Positions 142 through 34,448 of a stretch of 52,369 nucleotides of DNA are shown piece by piece; within the stretch, counting starts at the first letter, position 1, and each line of letters starts with the position of its first letter. The DNA lies in contig CAIMVM010000007.1 of NCBI GenBank assembly GCA_903844895.1, forward strand, positions 1-52,369. Direction: 5' to 3'. Below the pieces are notes generated by a model. The model did not search any database and was not told where the DNA came from. It was given only the letters and a program-made list of their open reading frames with translations. This DNA is from an uncultured Pseudomonadota bacterium. Its GTDB lineage: Bacteria > Bdellovibrionota_B > Oligoflexia > Oligoflexales > CAIMVM01. The position numbers and the translations under genes are program-made.

Positions 142-437
142 TACATTTCGAACCCTTAAAAACCCAATGCATCTGGCAGTCTGCCCTGGTTCCATGGGAC
201 AGGCCAAAAATCTCAAACCATTTTCTGATCTGTTTTGTCGGATATCTCCTAACCACTGCCGCAAATACCAAAGCCAAAGAACGCGGCAGATACAAAAGAA
301 ACATCAATAACTTCTTAATTGAAGTTCAACACATACGGCTCGCATGCACCAAGAAAAAGAAAAGCAGCACCTTGAGATACAAACTCGATTCCATACCGCC
401 CGAATTGAAAGAAATCGCCAAAATCTTAGACATCTAG
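142..437 (+). pseudogene. IS1634-like transposase, C-terminal remnant
   Basis: The + frame encodes KISNHFLICFVGYLLTTAAN, then a KAKERGRYKRNI segment and ELKEIAKILDI before a TAG at 435-437. It aligns directly with the minus-strand fragment at 48.2-48.5 kb (KISTHFLICIMGYLLTVAAY, ELKETAKILNI), so both derive from the same or closely related elements. Nucleotide similarity continues past the stop to about position 500, which probably marks the old IS end. The 5' three quarters of the gene are absent, apparently displaced by the IS3-family insertion ending at 141. Not expected to be functional. Confidence 0.75.
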
Positions 438-1445
438 AATCAGTCTATCAGGCCAAACTTCGATTCCAGTGGCTATACTTAGAATCCCTCAAATCCGCTG
501 TGCAGCTGTGCGTAGGTGGTTTTTAGGTGTAGCGATTTACCTAAGTCGCGCCAGAAAGGCATCAAACTCTTTAATCACATAGTTTGGTAATGGTTGTCCT
601 TCCCTATTCGTGTCGGAGATAAAAGTGTTTAGTTGAGTAAAAGCCATATCGAGTTCTATTCTTCTTGAAACTTTATTTCACCATTTGTCCTATGAGAGGC
701 TCAGGCTCTACATTTGCGCAAACAAGATCTTCCACATGTCTGAAATCCAATCGGCTAGTTTTTCGAAAGCAAGGTTATCAGCCTTTTTTTTGCGGTCCTC
801 TAATTCTTTAGATCCGGTCGATTTTTCTTAAGCAGAAGTCTGTGATTGACTTCCCATTCGAGAAGCCTCTGCCAGTTTGTACGGGCTTGCTCTTCGAGGT
901 ACTTGGGTTTTGGATTCCTGGATTACTGCTTGGCAGATTGGTTCACCCTTTCTTCCAGCAGGAGATGATCAAACTTGTTAATATGTGTTCTTGCCACGCA
1001 CCTCAAAGGTTTTCCTTATTCAGGTAACACATCAATTTGGCCCAGGATAAAGCCTTTCGAATCCTCTGGTATTCACCTGCGTCGTGAGAAAACCGTTAAT
1101 CAAAAAAATCCGACATTTACCTAGAAAACTCAACGTCTAAATCGGCATCCCAATTCCAGCTTCTGATTTGGCGATTTCAAGATTTTGACGATTCCTGTGG
1201 GTTCGAGTAGGATAAAATTTTCTAGAGATCCGCTTTAAAATAGGCCGACTTATGGTTCGATTGACTACATAAAACCACTAGAGGCGCCGTAGCTGATGCG
1301 TTTTTAAACCGATCCATCCAAGAAAACATCCAACTTTATGGAGTTGCTGCTTTCAATCTATCAAGTTAGACTAGTCCGTAAGATAAGGATCCGAAATTGA
1401 TTTCCAAACCAGCATTTTTATTTAAAATTCTGTGAGGTTCGACTA
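438..1445. other. Gene-free stretch with decayed reading frames
   Basis: No intact gene was recognised in this kilobase. The first 60 bases still resemble the IS1634-like element end. At 537-647 (minus) a short frame reads NREGQPLPNYVIKEFDAFL, which resembles the start of IS91-type (Y2) transposases, where a 'G-x-P-L-P-x-[FY]-V-x-x-E-F' segment occurs. At 708-916 (minus) two adjacent frames join into a protein-like stretch (KYLEEQARTNWQRLLEWEVN, then NLAFEKLADWISDMW) broken by stops, whose family I do not recognise. The rest up to the aminotransferase start shows nothing I can name. Confidence 0.4.
537..647 (-). pseudogene. Possible IS91-like transposase N-terminal remnant
   Basis: A 36-codon minus-strand frame opens MAFTQLNTFISDTNREGQP and continues LPNYVIKEFDAFL before a TAA. 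In IS91/IS801-type transposases the N-terminus typically contains an 'E-x-F-L ... G-x-P-L-P-x-[FY]-V-x-x-E-[FL]-x-x-[FY]-L' segment just ahead of the zinc-binding part. Here the frame stops where the Cys-rich segment should begin. Other IS91-like scraps occur at about 9.1 and 16.6 kb, which makes the call more plausible. The match is short and rests on motif memory only. Confidence 0.35.
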
Positions 1446-2615
1446 TTGAAAGATGAAATTTATTGCAAGCATGGCGGCCGCATGCATGAGACAATTGGTG
1501 ACACATTTTCTTTTCCTGAAAAGAGGAACGATTGTATTCCAGCAGATGTATTAGATGCCTGGTATCCACCACATTCCTCGGTCACGCAGTTTCTGATAGA
1601 AAACATGAATTGGCTTGTGGGCACTTCCCCCCCGTGCCGAATGGATGCTCTACGGGTAGAAGTTGCAAATTATCTAGATATACCCTCCCCAAATCTTCTC
1701 TTAGGTTCAGGATCCTCAGACCTCATTTTTAGAATAATGACCTCCCTATTTCCAAGGAGCAATAGTTCTACACATTTCCAAACTTCCCATAGTCATGAGA
1801 ATAAAAGAATAGGCATCGTTTCGCCTTGCTACGGTGAATACGCCCATGTAGCTTCCAAACTCTGTGGCCTCGAGATATTCCGGATTTATTCTGAATCGGA
1901 TCAGTTTACACTCAGCGCCAGAAGAATTTTAGATGAAGTTCAATCTAAATCCTTAAAAGCCCTATGTCTGGTAAATCCCTGCAACCCCACGGGTCAGTAC
2001 CTCCCCATTGAAGAGATGACGCTTCTTGTCATGGAATTACCAGGGTCATGTCTGTTGATCGTTGACGAAACTTATATTGAATTTGTAGGGAGGAGGCACT
2101 CTTTAGCTAAGTTGGCACTTTCAAGAAAAAATCTTATCGTTATAGAATCCTTTTCCAAGTTTTTTGCTTTAAGCGGCGTTAGGGTTGGCTGCGCGATTTC
2201 TCACCCAGATTTGACAAGCAGATTAGAGGAGACTTTTCCAACCTATCAATTGAGTAATTTTGCGATTGGCGCATTATCAAAGTCTCTGAAGCAAATTCCC
2301 TACTATCATGAAAAAGTAGAAGAAACTCATAAATTGCAAAAAGAATTAAGCAAAATGTTGCTGGAAATCCATTTTGTAGAGCGAGTCCTCCCTTCTACCA
2401 TAAATTCGGTATTGATAAAAGTAAAGGAGCAGCACAGCGCCGAGAAAATAAGAATTGCTCTCGGCGACCTATCTATATTTGTCAGAAATATAAGCGAACA
2501 AGGTTTAAAAACTGAGGATTGCGATCGATACTTGAGAATTGCCGTCTTGGATCAAGCCAGAAACATAGCTGTATACAAGGGCCTTAAATACCTTTCAGGC
2601 AGGCCAAAGCTATGA
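1446..2615 (+). CDS. PLP-dependent aminotransferase, HisC-like (class I/II)
   Basis: A 389-residue fold-type I aminotransferase of the histidinol-phosphate aminotransferase-like group. Visible marks are LLGSGSSDLIF (85-95), NPCNPTG (177-183), VDETYIEF (206-213), the PLP-binding lysine in SFSKFFALSG (K238), R246, and the substrate-carboxylate-type arginine in YLRIAV (R364). The opening (HGGRMHETIGDTF, then ADVLDAWYPP) resembles a HisC-like subfamily that I recall as also occurring fused to MobA-like nucleotidyltransferases, not classical HisC. Start is TTG at 1446. The gene overlaps the next by four bases (ATGA), so the two are probably translationally coupled. With an acyltransferase and a lipid hydroxylase behind it, a role in making an amino-containing lipid head group is plausible but inferred. 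Confidence 0.85.
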   Translation: MKDEIYCKHGGRMHETIGDTFSFPEKRNDCIPADVLDAWYPPHSSVTQFLIENMNWLVGTSPPCRMDALRVEVANYLDIPSPNLLLGSGSSDLIFRIMTSLFPRSNSSTHFQTSHSHENKRIGIVSPCYGEYAHVASKLCGLEIFRIYSESDQFTLSARRILDEVQSKSLKALCLVNPCNPTGQYLPIEEMTLLVMELPGSCLLIVDETYIEFVGRRHSLAKLALSRKNLIVIESFSKFFALSGVRVGCAISHPDLTSRLEETFPTYQLSNFAIGALSKSLKQIPYYHEKVEETHKLQKELSKMLLEIHFVERVLPSTINSVLIKVKEQHSAEKIRIALGDLSIFVRNISEQGLKTEDCDRYLRIAVLDQARNIAVYKGLKYLSGRPKL

Positions 2616-4021
2616 CCATAAACCTCAGAATCTATAGCAACCCTTTCCCCCTAGATCTCGAGAAAAAAATAGTCGATGTTTGCGCCTTCTGCTATCCGGG
2701 GATGCCAAGCTCCGAAATTCATCTTAGGTTTAAGAACTACCACAATATCATAGTTGCATTTGATTTAGATAAAGCGATTGGTTTTCTATTCTTGTCGCGC
2801 CATGAAACGCCTTTGCGGGTTCTCTGGGGCTTACGAATGAATGGAGTCCTCCAGGAATATCGGTCCAAGAGAGTTTTGCTTCGCATGGGCTGGAAAGCGA
2901 TCATAAAGTTCGTCTTACCTGATTTTGGGAATAGCCTATTGCGATTGTCAAAACGACCGAAAAAGGAAATTGTTTGCTATGCTCGGATATGTAACCCTAT
3001 TGCGGCCAAAGCCTTTACTCGCAGCAAACAATTTGAGCCTAACTTTCTTTCAGAGGCACCGCCTTCTGAATGGGCAAAAGAGGTTTATTTAGATTTGATC
3101 GCCTATTCTGCGATAAGTGGCTTAGATCCTAAGACCGGACTTTGTTTGAATTCAGCCCACGAGCATGGCATAAATCCAGAGGTATCACTCACTCAGACCC
3201 ATTCTCATTTTTATAGATCCTGGAACAAGCTCGTTCCGCAAGGCTCAGAACTAGTTTTGCTATTTCCTTTCGATTTAAAGTTTTTGGGGCAATGTATAGA
3301 AGATCAGGCTTTAAAGTTTAAAAAATTTGCTATCACATCCTTCAATAGGTCTCTGAAGGGCCTCAGTTTTAGTGTCTTATTGCTGGCAGCTTGTATATCT
3401 ATTTTGCTTGCAGCAACGCGTTCAATTGATACTGCTCATGTTTTTTTAAGAAATTGGTCGCGGTATCTCCTTAAAGTCCTTGGGTGCAAACTGGAACTGC
3501 AAGGATCCTTACCTGAGAATCTGAGCGGATATATAGTAGCTGCTCAACACACATCGTTATTGGATACCTTTATTTATCCGTGCATTTTACCGCCTAGAAC
3601 ACTGTATTTTGCCAAGAAAGAATTGCGTCACACTCCTATTTTTGGTTTTCTATTGGCTCGCCTGGGCTATTTGTTTGTAGAAAGAGATTCTGCCGTTAGT
3701 TCTCTAAAGCTTATGGAAAATGTTGGTCTGAAGGCAAAATCAACCGATATTTTCTTCATGCATCCCCAGGGAACTAGAAGACCTGATGGTACAATTGGAA
3801 CATTAAAATCGGGGTTAGCAGTTTTGGCGAAATCTAGCCGCTTACCGATAGTGCCGATTACCTCGGAGGGTGGGTCTGCGCTTTGGCCAAAAGGCAAATG
3901 GCTCCCCCATGCTGGAACTGTTAGAATAAGTATCCTTGCGGAAGTTTCTAAGGAATCAGTGAGCCATATGACCACGCGGGAAATTACCAAGCTGCTGGAA
4001 GAAAGTTTCTCCAGGGCTTAG
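2612..4021 (+). CDS. Two-domain acyltransferase: N-terminal GNAT-like, C-terminal PlsC-like
   Basis: A 469-residue protein. Residues 1 to about 160 look like a GNAT-type acyltransferase (segment VLQEYRSKRVLLRMGWKAI near 79-97). A hydrophobic segment spans about 248-268. Residues 295-460 form an LPLAT/PlsC domain with HTSLLD (H313 to D318, the HX4D catalytic motif) and FMHPQGTR (383-389), where most relatives carry FPEGTR; the Glu is replaced by Gln386. PlsC-type enzymes transfer acyl chains to lysophospholipids at the inner membrane. The start codon overlaps the aminotransferase stop (ATGA). The pairing of two acyl-transferring domains suggests N- and O-acylation of one amino-lipid precursor (inference). 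Confidence 0.8.
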   Translation: MTINLRIYSNPFPLDLEKKIVDVCAFCYPGMPSSEIHLRFKNYHNIIVAFDLDKAIGFLFLSRHETPLRVLWGLRMNGVLQEYRSKRVLLRMGWKAIIKFVLPDFGNSLLRLSKRPKKEIVCYARICNPIAAKAFTRSKQFEPNFLSEAPPSEWAKEVYLDLIAYSAISGLDPKTGLCLNSAHEHGINPEVSLTQTHSHFYRSWNKLVPQGSELVLLFPFDLKFLGQCIEDQALKFKKFAITSFNRSLKGLSFSVLLLAACISILLAATRSIDTAHVFLRNWSRYLLKVLGCKLELQGSLPENLSGYIVAAQHTSLLDTFIYPCILPPRTLYFAKKELRHTPIFGFLLARLGYLFVERDSAVSSLKLMENVGLKAKSTDIFFMHPQGTRRPDGTIGTLKSGLAVLAKSSRLPIVPITSEGGSALWPKGKWLPHAGTVRISILAEVSKESVSHMTTREITKLLEESFSRA

Positions 4022-4229
4022 AGCTAAAACAGCCAACCGAAAGCTTGCGCAAACTTGATCAACTTGTCTTACAACTGCCGATAATATGATTTTTTTTGGT
4101 TCAGCCCCCTGTTCCGAAATGCGGCTGGCAAATATATCTCGGCATAATCTGAAGTTTTCTGACCTCTCTATTCTCTGCACGCAAGGCATGGTAAGATGTC
4201 TATACACTAGCACGGAAAGACAATAAGGC

Positions 4230-5225
4230 ATGCCATCTCTTCCCACACCTGAAGATAAGATTTCATCATTTTATCGTATGGCATTTTGCATCTCTTTTGT
4301 TTGTCAGTTCCTTCTAACATTTGCTTACCTCCGGGGTGGCCATTCCATAGAGTTCTCTCACCTCGGACTTTTACCAGTACTGATTTCCGTGCTGATTCTC
4401 GCTTGTGAAATCATCTTGTTGCGTAATATCATTTGGAGAGATATTTACCTTTTTATCCTTAATTATGGGACTTACGCTTTGGTTGGATTTTTTACTATGC
4501 GCTTTGTGCTCAATGATCTTCTTATTGAGCAAAGAACGGCGTCTTACCGAGAGCAGTTACCAGGACAATCGAGTCTTTGGCTTTCAATCTCGATCGCCTC
4601 GTTTTTGTTTGCTGATTATCTTTCATGGCTCGTGCATTTCCTGTTTCATAAGGTGCGTGGGTTTATAGGCGATATATCATTTCTTTGCCACATGACACAT
4701 CACAGCATGGATAGAATGCAATTCTCAGCAGTGCGACACAATGCCGTTGCGGTATTTTTGGCTCTTGCTCCCACAACAGTTTTATTGGCTTTTCTTGAAG
4801 ATAGGAATGATTCACTTGCATGCGCCATCTTAATTGGATTTCTAGCTCAACTTTCACTCAATGCAATCTTGACTCCATTTCAACATGCAAAGTTCCATTC
4901 CCTTTTTGCTCAAAAGCTGAGAATTGCGGTTGGGTCTTTCCATGGGAAACATCACGACGACCGTATTGGGGGGAGTCGCTACAATTTCTCAGTTGGAGTT
5001 TTGAGCATTTGGGATGACTTGATGGGAACCGCAGCACCGATGGGGCCGCTTTCAGATGAAAAAAATGAGACATGGTCTTCTAGCGACGAAAGCTCAGCCT
5101 ACGGGATTTTGGGCGTAGCCTATGCTGGCAATTCAAAGACAATACTCCAAGCGTTTTTGCGCGGTCAGTCAGGCCCTTTACAATCCTATTTTTCTACCCA
5201 CCTTAAAAGGCTCACAAAAAACTAG
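4230..5225 (+). CDS. Fatty acid hydroxylase / sterol desaturase family membrane protein
   Basis: A 331-residue integral membrane di-iron enzyme candidate. The histidine clusters of the family are present: HFLFH (136-140), HMTHH (154-158), H219/H223, and HGKHHDD (238-244), followed by the conserved NFSVGVLSIWDDLMGT segment (252-267). Several hydrophobic helices lie between 15 and 130 and at about 172-215. Such enzymes hydroxylate or desaturate lipid chains using O2. It lies about 210 bases after the acyltransferase on the same strand, so it may share a transcript or have its own promoter in that gap. ATG follows AATAAGGC. Substrate unknown; context suggests the lipid made by the two upstream genes. 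Confidence 0.85.
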   Translation: MPSLPTPEDKISSFYRMAFCISFVCQFLLTFAYLRGGHSIEFSHLGLLPVLISVLILACEIILLRNIIWRDIYLFILNYGTYALVGFFTMRFVLNDLLIEQRTASYREQLPGQSSLWLSISIASFLFADYLSWLVHFLFHKVRGFIGDISFLCHMTHHSMDRMQFSAVRHNAVAVFLALAPTTVLLAFLEDRNDSLACAILIGFLAQLSLNAILTPFQHAKFHSLFAQKLRIAVGSFHGKHHDDRIGGSRYNFSVGVLSIWDDLMGTAAPMGPLSDEKNETWSSSDESSAYGILGVAYAGNSKTILQAFLRGQSGPLQSYFSTHLKRLTKN

Positions 5226-31949: not shown

Positions 31950-32038
31950 TTTAAAATGGGGCGAATTTTTAGATTTAAGTTAAGTAAAGGCGTGCCGAAA
32001 GGGAATTTACACCAATTGGTGAACAGGATGGAGGCCTC

Positions 32039-33076
32039 ATGACGAATAAAAATAAAACTCACTGGGCAGTGAATATCTCCTTAAACCGATTTGCAACCCT
32101 CCGAACCCAGTTGACTCATTTGGACCTTTTTCCACAAATACACCACAAAGCAGTGGGCGCACGCCCGTTGGCTTTCATCCGTCAACGAGGTTTTACTATA
32201 CTTGAAGCTTTAATTACGATTGCTATTATGTCAGTTGCCGGTTTGGCACTGACTAGCCTTAATGTTCGGGGAATGAAAGCGAATAAGTCAGCTTTGATGA
32301 GAAGCGACATTATGGATACCAAGCGGACGATCACGGACTTGCTTAGCTGTGAGCAAACTCTAGGAGTTGCAAGACCTACGACCTGTTTAGGCGAGGTGAT
32401 TCTTAAAGATAAAAAAGGAAATCCACTTTTGCACAATGGTAAACTTGGCGAATGGACTATTAAAGGTACTTGCGAAGTCCTTGGTGATTCAGGAGCAGGA
32501 CTTACTATCCGTGCTACTAAGCCTGAAGGTAGCAATGGAACGACATTTAAGACGGATCCAATTAACAATTTACCCCTTGATGATAATCACCCTTTGAGCA
32601 TGCTGTTTTCTCCTGATGTTCGCCCCTGTGCAGGCAATTTTGGAAATGAGGCACCTACACAGACTATCCCTTTGGGTGGCATCATAATGTGGTCTGGAAG
32701 TATTGCTTATATTCCCTCTGGGTGGTCATTATGTGATGGTTCTAATGGAACTCCAGATTTGAGAGATCGTTTTGTTGTTGGCTCTGGGGGGGCATATAAT
32801 GTAGGTGACATCGGCGGTAGCCCAGATGCAGTTCTTGTTGCACATAAACATGCTCCAGAAATTCTTCCTACGAATGGAAATAGTGGATTTTCAATCGCAA
32901 ATCCCAATGGACCGAACACTGGTAGCTTTGCTCTTACTCCCGTCCAATTTACAAGTGCTACTAATGTTTGGGGCCAGGGATATCCGTCTCAATTTACATC
33001 TACTGAAGGCGTATCCGGCAAAAATGCAAATCTTCCTCCATACTTTTCGCTTGCTTACATAATGAAAATAAAGTGA
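32039..33076 (+). CDS. Prepilin-type N-terminus fused to a phage tail-collar-like C-terminal domain
   Basis: 345 residues. At 51-73 lies a prepilin leader/cleavage motif, RG|FTILEALITIAIMSVAGL, with Glu at +5 and a hydrophobic helix, so prepilin peptidase should cut after G51. Residues about 80-200 are pilin-like globular sequence with several Cys. From 208 the chain resembles the tail-collar/MdpB-like domain: LGGIIMWSGSIAYIPSGWSL, CDGSNGTPDLRDRFVVGSG, GGSPDAVLVAHKHAP and the end NLPPYFSLAYIMKIK. ATG follows GGAGGCCTC. The 50-residue pre-leader is unusually long; a TTG at codon 44 would give a normal leader. It may be a minor pilin with an adhesive tip (inference). Confidence 0.8.
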   Translation: MTNKNKTHWAVNISLNRFATLRTQLTHLDLFPQIHHKAVGARPLAFIRQRGFTILEALITIAIMSVAGLALTSLNVRGMKANKSALMRSDIMDTKRTITDLLSCEQTLGVARPTTCLGEVILKDKKGNPLLHNGKLGEWTIKGTCEVLGDSGAGLTIRATKPEGSNGTTFKTDPINNLPLDDNHPLSMLFSPDVRPCAGNFGNEAPTQTIPLGGIIMWSGSIAYIPSGWSLCDGSNGTPDLRDRFVVGSGGAYNVGDIGGSPDAVLVAHKHAPEILPTNGNSGFSIANPNGPNTGSFALTPVQFTSATNVWGQGYPSQFTSTEGVSGKNANLPPYFSLAYIMKIK

Positions 33077-33179
33077 ACGATTTGGTTTTTCAGGGTTCAA
33101 TCAGTAAGTCAAAATCTTTTGATTTGGATAGAAGTAGGGAGAATCCGTCGCCGGTCCCTGTCCCTCCTATAATTCCAAT

Positions 33180-33705
33180 TTAAGCAGCAATGGGTGTGTA
33201 GTACATGCCTCCACACACTGGCTTCCACTTAAAGTTCTTCAAATCTATTGAGGCCAATTGCCGTTCATCAGTTATTTCATTGGGGGTTTTACCACCATGG
33301 TTGTAATGAACACGGTAGAAACTGAAATACTCTTGAAACACTAAAAGCTTTGCAAGTAAATCTGACTCACTCCAAAACAAAATATAATCTGTAAACTCTC
33401 GTCGCCAGCTTCCAATTAGACGCTCGATGAAAGAGTGACTCCATGGGCAATAGGGAGCCGATTTAATCTCTTGGATGTTGAAGTTATTTTCCAGATTTAC
33501 TTTCCAGAGCCAATAATTGAAGAGAGGGTCGTGGTCAGGTGAGATGTATCTTGGCCAGTCCTTGCCAGAAGCTATTTTGCTATCCATATAACAGATATTG
33601 CCACCACTCAAAGAGCCTTGACGAACTGAAAATCCAACTATTTTTCTTGTAAATGGATCCATAACTACCATTACCCAAAATGAACGCAAAAACAGCTAGA
33701 ATGCC
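33180..33705 (-). pseudogene. DDE integrase-core transposase, C-terminal remnant (IS481-like)
   Basis: The open part begins at 33689 with SFWVMVVMDPFTRKIVGFSV (first Asp), then GKDWPRYISPDHDPLF (second Asp), PYCPWSHSFIERLIGSWRRE (Glu), and ends KPVCGGMYYTPIAA. It resembles integrase-core proteins with an 'S-x-W-V-L-V-V-M-D-x-x-T-R-R-I-I-G-F' motif. Just upstream the same frame has an in-frame TAG and then no homology, so the N-terminal half is lost. It lies tail-to-tail with the prepilin-collar gene. Not expected to be functional. Confidence 0.75.
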
Positions 33706-33729
33706 CGAAATGCGTTAATTGTGGCATTG

Positions 33730-33897
33730 CTAGCAATTTGAGGAGCCACAGGTTTCGGACTCCAGCAAATTGCTAGTCAGTGTGGCTTCCACAGTGTGCC
33801 GCAGCAAACTCGATTTGCCAGTTTGACGCGGGCCAAATAGAAAGCATGATTTGTCAGTAGGAATGGTTAACTTTCGCTTGATATAATGAATACTTAT
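33730..33897 (-). pseudogene. AAA_14-type ATPase, N-terminal remnant
   Basis: The minus strand reads YIKRKLTIPTDKSCFLFGPR followed by QTGKSSLLRHTVEATL and stops at 33730. 'F-L-F-G-P-R-Q-T-G-K-S' is the Walker A region of the AAA_14 (DUF4143-associated) ATPases. About 50 codons remain; there is no Walker B or DUF4143. There is an in-frame stop just ahead of the segment and no normal start codon. Confidence 0.6.
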
Positions 33898-34448
33898 CCC
33901 TTGGAAGCGCCCGTCTCGTCAATTTTCATGATATTTGACGGAATAGGCGACGTCAAGGGGGCGAATGTTCGATCTGGCTGCAGGGCGGCCGCGCTGCAAT
34001 ATTTTAAGACATTTTAAATTGAGGTGAGAGAATTTTTGGTCCAAAAGACTCGAAATGTCTAGAACTAACGCCAGAGAAGTAATTCTGGCGATTTCTTGTT
34101 TTTACGCCTTGACATCCGTTACCACTTTAATCAACGATGCTCTTTCAGCAACCCCCGCACTCAAGCACTATTCAACACGAAGTGAACAATGGCCCTCGCT
34201 ATTAAATCAAAGTCGACTTCGACTCCATAGTATGTCAGACATATTATATGATAGCAACATTCGATTGAATTAGGAAATTTCATAAAACCTTCGAACTTTA
34301 CAGGCCAAGCATCCAGACGTTGCGTCAAAACCGCGCGAGAGTTCCACGCCTTCGTTCCAAACCCATTACCTCCTGTTATTTCGCTAATACCAGAAATTGT
34401 TGAACTGCTGTATTTCTCTAAACTTTTGGTATGGGAGGTTACGGCTCG
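33898..34448. other. Intergenic region, nothing recognised
   Basis: A 72-codon + frame at 34055-34273 has no motif or convincing ribosome-binding site. No other structure was noted between the ATPase remnant and the photolyase stop. Confidence 0.4.

Follow-up and report, generated by a model that had tools for sequence, protein, structure and literature searches.

The product of the gene at 32039-33076 is best read as a modular minor type IV pilin whose head would be assembled at the pilus tip and whose phage tail-collar domain would be displayed there as a receptor-binding module, an identity to which we give somewhat better than an even chance. The gene lies in a stretch of DNA of 52,369 nucleotides (hereafter, the window). 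A prepilin motif, homology to phage collars and a family of related heads, all detected at the sequence level, make this the best reading, and it agrees with the original prediction of a pilin or pseudopilin subunit whose C-terminal domain serves adhesion or cell contact. Prepilin peptidase would cut after Gly51, and the head would then enter the pilus via its hydrophobic helix. The collar would most likely sit at or near the pilus tip, since so bulky a domain would not fit into the shaft, the same argument that has been made for the tip position of Streptococcus sanguinis PilB (PMC8179133). From this position it would project a phage-derived receptor-binding module able to touch surface glycans or lipopolysaccharide (LPS) of other cells or the substratum. 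The features of the locus are as follows.

32039..33076, plus strand: modular pilin gene; ATG start, 345 amino acids in a single frame, with a long leader, a prepilin cleavage site, a four-cysteine pilin head and a phage collar tip
32030..32034, plus strand: Shine-Dalgarno sequence GGAGG, 4 bases 5' of ATG 32039, read from the sequence
32039..32191, plus strand: leader peptide, residues 1-51, with predicted prepilin peptidase cleavage after Gly51 (FIRQRG/FTILE); start uncertain
32192..32344, plus strand: long N-terminal helix of the mature pilin (Phe+1, Glu+5); helix 2-50 in the AlphaFold model, mean pLDDT 67
32192..32647, plus strand: conserved pilin head, residues 52-203 (about 150 residues), with Cys 104, 116, 145 and 197; common to paralogues and members across the phylum
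32654..33073, plus strand: phage tail-collar tip domain, residues 206-345 (PHROG 1800, E = 1.6e-21; phages; PDB 9qgo, 6ov6, 9nxk and 1ocy)
32843..32851, plus strand: His-Lys-His, residues 269-271, an HxH motif that hardly varies among related viral collars and that the profile alignment places next to the HKH of T4 gp12
33180-33689, minus strand: integrase-core open reading frame; its DNA is found again on contig 227 (91%) and, as fragments, on more than 10 other contigs

The plus-strand frame from 32039 to 33076 has no internal stop and stays open over its full length of 345 residues. The fusion of pilin and collar is a single frame, which rules out the frameshift or two-gene reading that the original prediction had raised against itself. 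That prediction had also flagged the leader as long and the true start as possibly later. A leader of 51 residues is indeed unusual, and two in-frame alternatives, GTG at 32153 and TTG at 32168, would give leaders of ordinary length (13 and 8 residues, respectively). However, ATG 32039 is probably the start, because GGAGG precedes it, neither the GTG nor the TTG has a good Shine-Dalgarno sequence, and several relatives also have long leaders (39-68 residues in the longest reading of each). The mature protein is identical whichever of the three starts applies.

Residues 46-71 (FIRQRG followed by FTILEALITIAIMSVAGLAL) carry the Gly(-1), Phe(+1) and Glu(+5) of a type IV prepilin site. Pfam N_methyl matched residues 48-71 at 26.0 bits (cut-off 21.2; E = 6.1e-6) and TIGR02532 matched above its own cut-off, bearing out the cleavage motif with Glu+5 that had been claimed from the letters. 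The hydrophobic helix claimed behind it was recovered as one predicted helix over mature residues 2-50. We folded the head and the collar separately, as a joint alignment of the whole proteins misplaced the heads. In the head model (six sequences, pLDDT 67) the helix is followed by a small sheet with strands at 67-69, 88-96, 102-109 and 137-139; at middling confidence, the model shows the layout expected of a pilin. A fold search of the PDB with this model returned no significant match. Used as a profile, the head retrieved pilins as its top PDB matches over the N-terminal helix only (toxin co-regulated pilin, E = 2e-4; geopilins, 7e-4), and a comparison of the head with described families found nothing beyond the N-terminal motif.

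The C-terminal part of the protein resembles phage tail collars over its whole length. Residues 200-344 matched PHROG 1800 ('tail collar fiber protein') in a whole-domain alignment that includes the HxH motif and the C-terminal strand of the gp12 type. A tblastn search of phages found 48.9% identity over 139 residues to the cyanophage Synechococcus phage S-SKS1 (E = 5e-29), and 70 viral contigs were matched by the domain. In the PDB, the collar matched the tail fibre proteins 9qgo and 9nxk (E = 7e-10 and 4e-5) and the Bizionia C24 protein 6ov6, and as a profile it matched the tip of the T4 short tail fibre gp12 (1ocy) over the whole domain (E = 1e-4). Significant matches in the PHROG, phage and PDB searches thus confirm the collar domain, the point on which the original prediction had been made to hang. 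Of the two Pfam families proposed in that prediction, N_methyl exceeded its cut-off, whereas Collar (PF07484) reached 21.5 bits over residues 213-236 only, below the gathering cut-off of 24. The collar modelled as a monomer was poor (pLDDT 59); Foldseek with this model gave the collar-bearing 6ov6 (E = 7e-4) and the tail fibre of Pseudomonas phage Pa223 (8e-3) as best matches.

The core motifs of the collar, HxH and the NLPPYFSLAYIMK end, are kept in the window protein. In the gp12 trimer, this His pair holds a metal ion, and by analogy residues 269-271 are a putative metal site of a trimer. Because tail-fibre collar domains are trimeric and the HxH is kept, the working tip would probably consist of three copies joined round a metal ion, comparable to the trimeric pilus tips of TcpB and CofB. 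A bacterial surface glycan would be the likeliest ligand, again by analogy, because gp12 binds cells and its probable target is inner-core LPS (PMC8760310). Recognition of prey by such a tip is possible.

We found no similar collar elsewhere in the order (43 genomes searched). Because the nearest collars found are viral and the order has no similar one, the collar tip is likely to have come from a phage, with cellular genomes outside the phylum covered by searches with short patterns only. Elsewhere in the phylum, collars stood on signal-peptide proteins or on long fibre-like proteins, and none was seen with a prepilin head. Five such proteins from one genus (g25; L058, L060, L061, L062 and L073) are free-standing collar proteins within the same taxonomic class, with about 200-300 amino acids, an apparent signal peptide, a short linker and what looks like a collar. 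Two candidates for further collar-tipped pilins were rejected: the end of a 195-amino-acid reading (L008) is a short stretch that merely resembles a collar start, and collar-tipped proteins on conjugative Serratia plasmids have an N terminus without a prepilin motif. On the Serratia marcescens plasmids pE53 and pQC19 (L201 and L202), these fibre-like proteins adjoin a gene for an AAA ATPase and a large baseplate-like protein, and they are probably part of a phage-tail-like particle.

The head, by contrast with the collar, recurs widely. The same genome encodes two paralogues that resemble the window protein in the front part only and have other C termini; identity is 55% for the one on contig 174 (residues 48-202) and 49% for the one on contig 191 (residues 44-213). 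Across the phylum, a head profile found members in 31 of the 58 genomes, frequently as tandem pairs or triplets. Four cysteines are conserved, here 104, 116, 145 and 197, and similarity ends just past the fourth. Among 28 members compared pairwise, heads were similar at E < 1e-3 in 293 of 378 pairs and tails in 8, mostly those of tandem neighbours. When 48 members were scanned, N_methyl was found in 30 and a collar match in the window protein only; most of the other tips had no assigned family. Head and collar are joined immediately past the fourth conserved cysteine, at the point where the C termini of other members also change, and therefore the collar occupies the usual tip slot of the family.

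The original prediction had called for the same architecture in relatives. The head-plus-tip layout is present in both paralogues and in dozens of relatives, but its collar version was not found in a second genome among those of the order and the phylum or by short patterns outside the phylum. Because the paralogues and relatives share the head with other tips, the layout is not an assembly error. Since many unrelated tips share one head as their base, the collar would be one of several contact probes displayed by the lineage. More broadly, we tentatively suggest, at rather less than even odds, that the pilus tips of the lineage form a mosaic repertoire, in which a four-cysteine head found across the phylum exchanges unrelated tips, a phage receptor-binding domain among them, that recognise bacteria or surfaces. 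As a whole, this mosaic family appears to be undescribed in the literature that could be searched. The residue at position +5 was readable in 38 members and was Glu in 22 and another residue in 16 (Ser in 9). In one tandem triplet of family members, none had Glu+5. Losing Glu+5 would be compatible with a role in initiating the filament at its tip.

Of the components of a type IVa pilus, PilM, PilN, PilO, PilP and PilQ are encoded by a single operon on contig 361. PilA is encoded on contig 57, two PilT-like ATPases on contigs 19 and 225, and one A24 prepilin peptidase, PilD, on contig 216; all of these were checked with Pfam. The assembly ATPase PilB and the platform protein PilC were not found: PF00437 matched GspE and the two PilT-like ATPases only, and PF00482 matched GspF only, one protein here versus two in most relatives. 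In this assembly (4.23 Mb in 372 contigs, 95.6% complete, 1.8% contamination), either a gap or a true loss would explain their absence. A full type II secretion system (T2SS) is encoded on contig 73, with a secretin, GspE, GspF, GspG and further pseudopilins. Six N_methyl proteins were detected in the genome (PilA, two T2SS pseudopilins and three members of the head family), although this search missed other pseudopilins of contig 73 and further pilins may exist. The co-occurrence with pil or gsp genes that had been proposed as a check thus holds for the genome but not for the locus.

These findings bear on two other destinations for the protein. With a complete T2SS at hand and no PilB or PilC found, it could be a minor pseudopilin rather than a type IV pilin, placed at the tip of a T2SS pseudopilus, whether ordinary or over-extended, and the NCBIfam models GspH, GspI and GspJ do match its helix weakly. 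We consider this unlikely: the gene is outside the gsp operon, which has its own pseudopilins, the genome retains an intact PilMNOPQ operon with PilA and two PilT-like ATPases, and a globular collar of 140 residues is hard to fit in a periplasmic pseudopilus. The protein could also be a surface or periplasmic adhesin that is merely pilin-like, exported or anchored in the membrane by its helix and never part of a filament. Its unusually long leader, the absence of Glu+5 in 16 of the 38 readable relatives and the scattering of the family genes away from pilus genes would suit such an adhesin. However, the window protein itself has a perfect cleavage site that includes both Phe+1 and Glu+5, filament tips are known to contain subunits without Glu+5 (GspK) and minor pilins are commonly unlinked, and so we regard this explanation as quite unlikely.

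The surroundings of the gene raise the question of whether the fusion is meaningful at all. The gene stands alone, with the gene for ribosomal protein S21 on one side and a stretch derived from an insertion sequence (IS; 33164-34440) on the other. Its neighbours are housekeeping genes (ribosomal protein S21, an aldose epimerase, a photolyase and a tRNA pseudouridine synthase) with no pil genes among them, which rules out a prophage location. A recent accident, in which a piece of a phage gene landed behind a pilin gene near IS debris and is functionless or decaying, would account for several observations: the only close relatives of the collar that were found are in phages, the genomes searched in the order have no similar collar, IS-like DNA repeated in the genome starts about 90 bases downstream, and the third codon positions of the collar are poorer in G+C (27%) than those of the head (34%) and of three neighbouring genes (38-45%). 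We nevertheless judge it very unlikely, given that the 345-residue frame is intact, that the collar has retained its core motifs and that the joint falls in the tip slot used by the rest of the family. We attach almost no weight to the idea that the joint is an artefact of assembly or contamination, for which the fragmented and slightly contaminated assembly and the lack of a second genome with the fusion might speak; the frame crosses the joint with no stop or shift, overall G+C is alike on both sides, the joint coincides with the family boundary, and the two paralogues, on contigs 174 and 191, repeat the layout with different tips. Against the minor type IV pilin itself we count the missing PilB and PilC, a locus unlinked to pil genes, the middling head model without a fold match, the poor model of the collar monomer, the relatives without Glu+5 and a fusion seen in one genome.

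Modular pilins are already a published class, and the window protein is a further member of it. A survey of modular type IV pilins described 264 architectures, one of them with an S74 peptidase domain that is also found on tail fibres, and it placed S. sanguinis PilB, a von Willebrand factor A (vWA) adhesin, at the pilus tip (PNAS 2021, PMC8179133); S. sanguinis PilC, of the same class, has a lectin module. Like these proteins, the window protein combines a small N-terminal pilin module with a C-terminal module whose use is not restricted to pili. Unlike them, it bears a phage tail collar, on a four-cysteine head that is spread over the phylum and carries many tips. Full-text searches for literature naming pilins together with tail collars returned nothing relevant.

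TcpB of Vibrio cholerae and CofB of enterotoxigenic Escherichia coli (ETEC) are homotrimeric type IVb minor pilins in which the loop that follows the helix contains a disulphide (PMC9565799), a position that fits Cys104 and Cys116 here. In both, the pilin domain precedes beta-rich domains, which assemble as a homotrimer at the tip, resembling the trimeric collar tip proposed here, but their tip has an H-type-lectin-like fold and we detected no homology to the window protein beyond the pilin helix. Separately, a family member in another genome (L011; contig 5 of G017, 1195-2025, minus strand) and its tandem neighbour have tips that, by eye, look alike and H-type-lectin-like, as in CofB and TcpB. 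PilV of the I-complex plasmids R64 and TP114 likewise has a constant pilin N terminus and exchangeable C-terminal adhesin segments that select the partner cell, which are switched by a shufflon (PMC9045228), whereas each variant described here has a gene of its own, single or in a tandem array, and the tips are unrelated; no shufflon recombinase was noticed among the genes listed around the locus. The Kil/Tad pilus tips of Myxococcus, in which alternative minor pilin complexes expose variable domains for prey contact (PMC12075869), are similar by description; they are Tad-type heterotrimers encoded in clusters, unlike the present family.

Two further comparisons concern the contact end. The entire tip domain, residues 206-345, can be matched to T4 gp12 (1ocy) and to collar proteins of phages, and yet in phage fibres the collar sits on a trimeric stalk and here it sits on a pilin. 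The mosaic adhesive trimers (MAT fibres) of Bdellovibrio bacteriovorus pair a conserved display end with a diversified, phage-fibre-like trimeric contact end (PMC10769870), as is proposed here. However, MAT proteins are long trimeric fibres with a beta-helix shaft, whereas the window protein has a pilin as its anchor, with a pilin-like head of about 150 residues and few residues before the collar. At one locus in another genome (L126; contig 234 of G034, 189-4373), the gene immediately upstream of a family member (3399-4373) encodes a 1,031-amino-acid protein that by eye looks like a secreted MAT-type fibre, which suggests that MAT-type fibres and pilin-tip display systems can be neighbours.

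If the minor type IV pilin reading is correct, bacteria of this lineage reuse the host-recognition parts of phages on their pili, a pilus-based counterpart to the MAT fibres of Bdellovibrio. The specificity of the pilus tip would then be directly testable by binding assays on isolated tips, and the pilin head would mark a ready list of contact modules, comprising dozens of tips without assigned function in 31 genomes.
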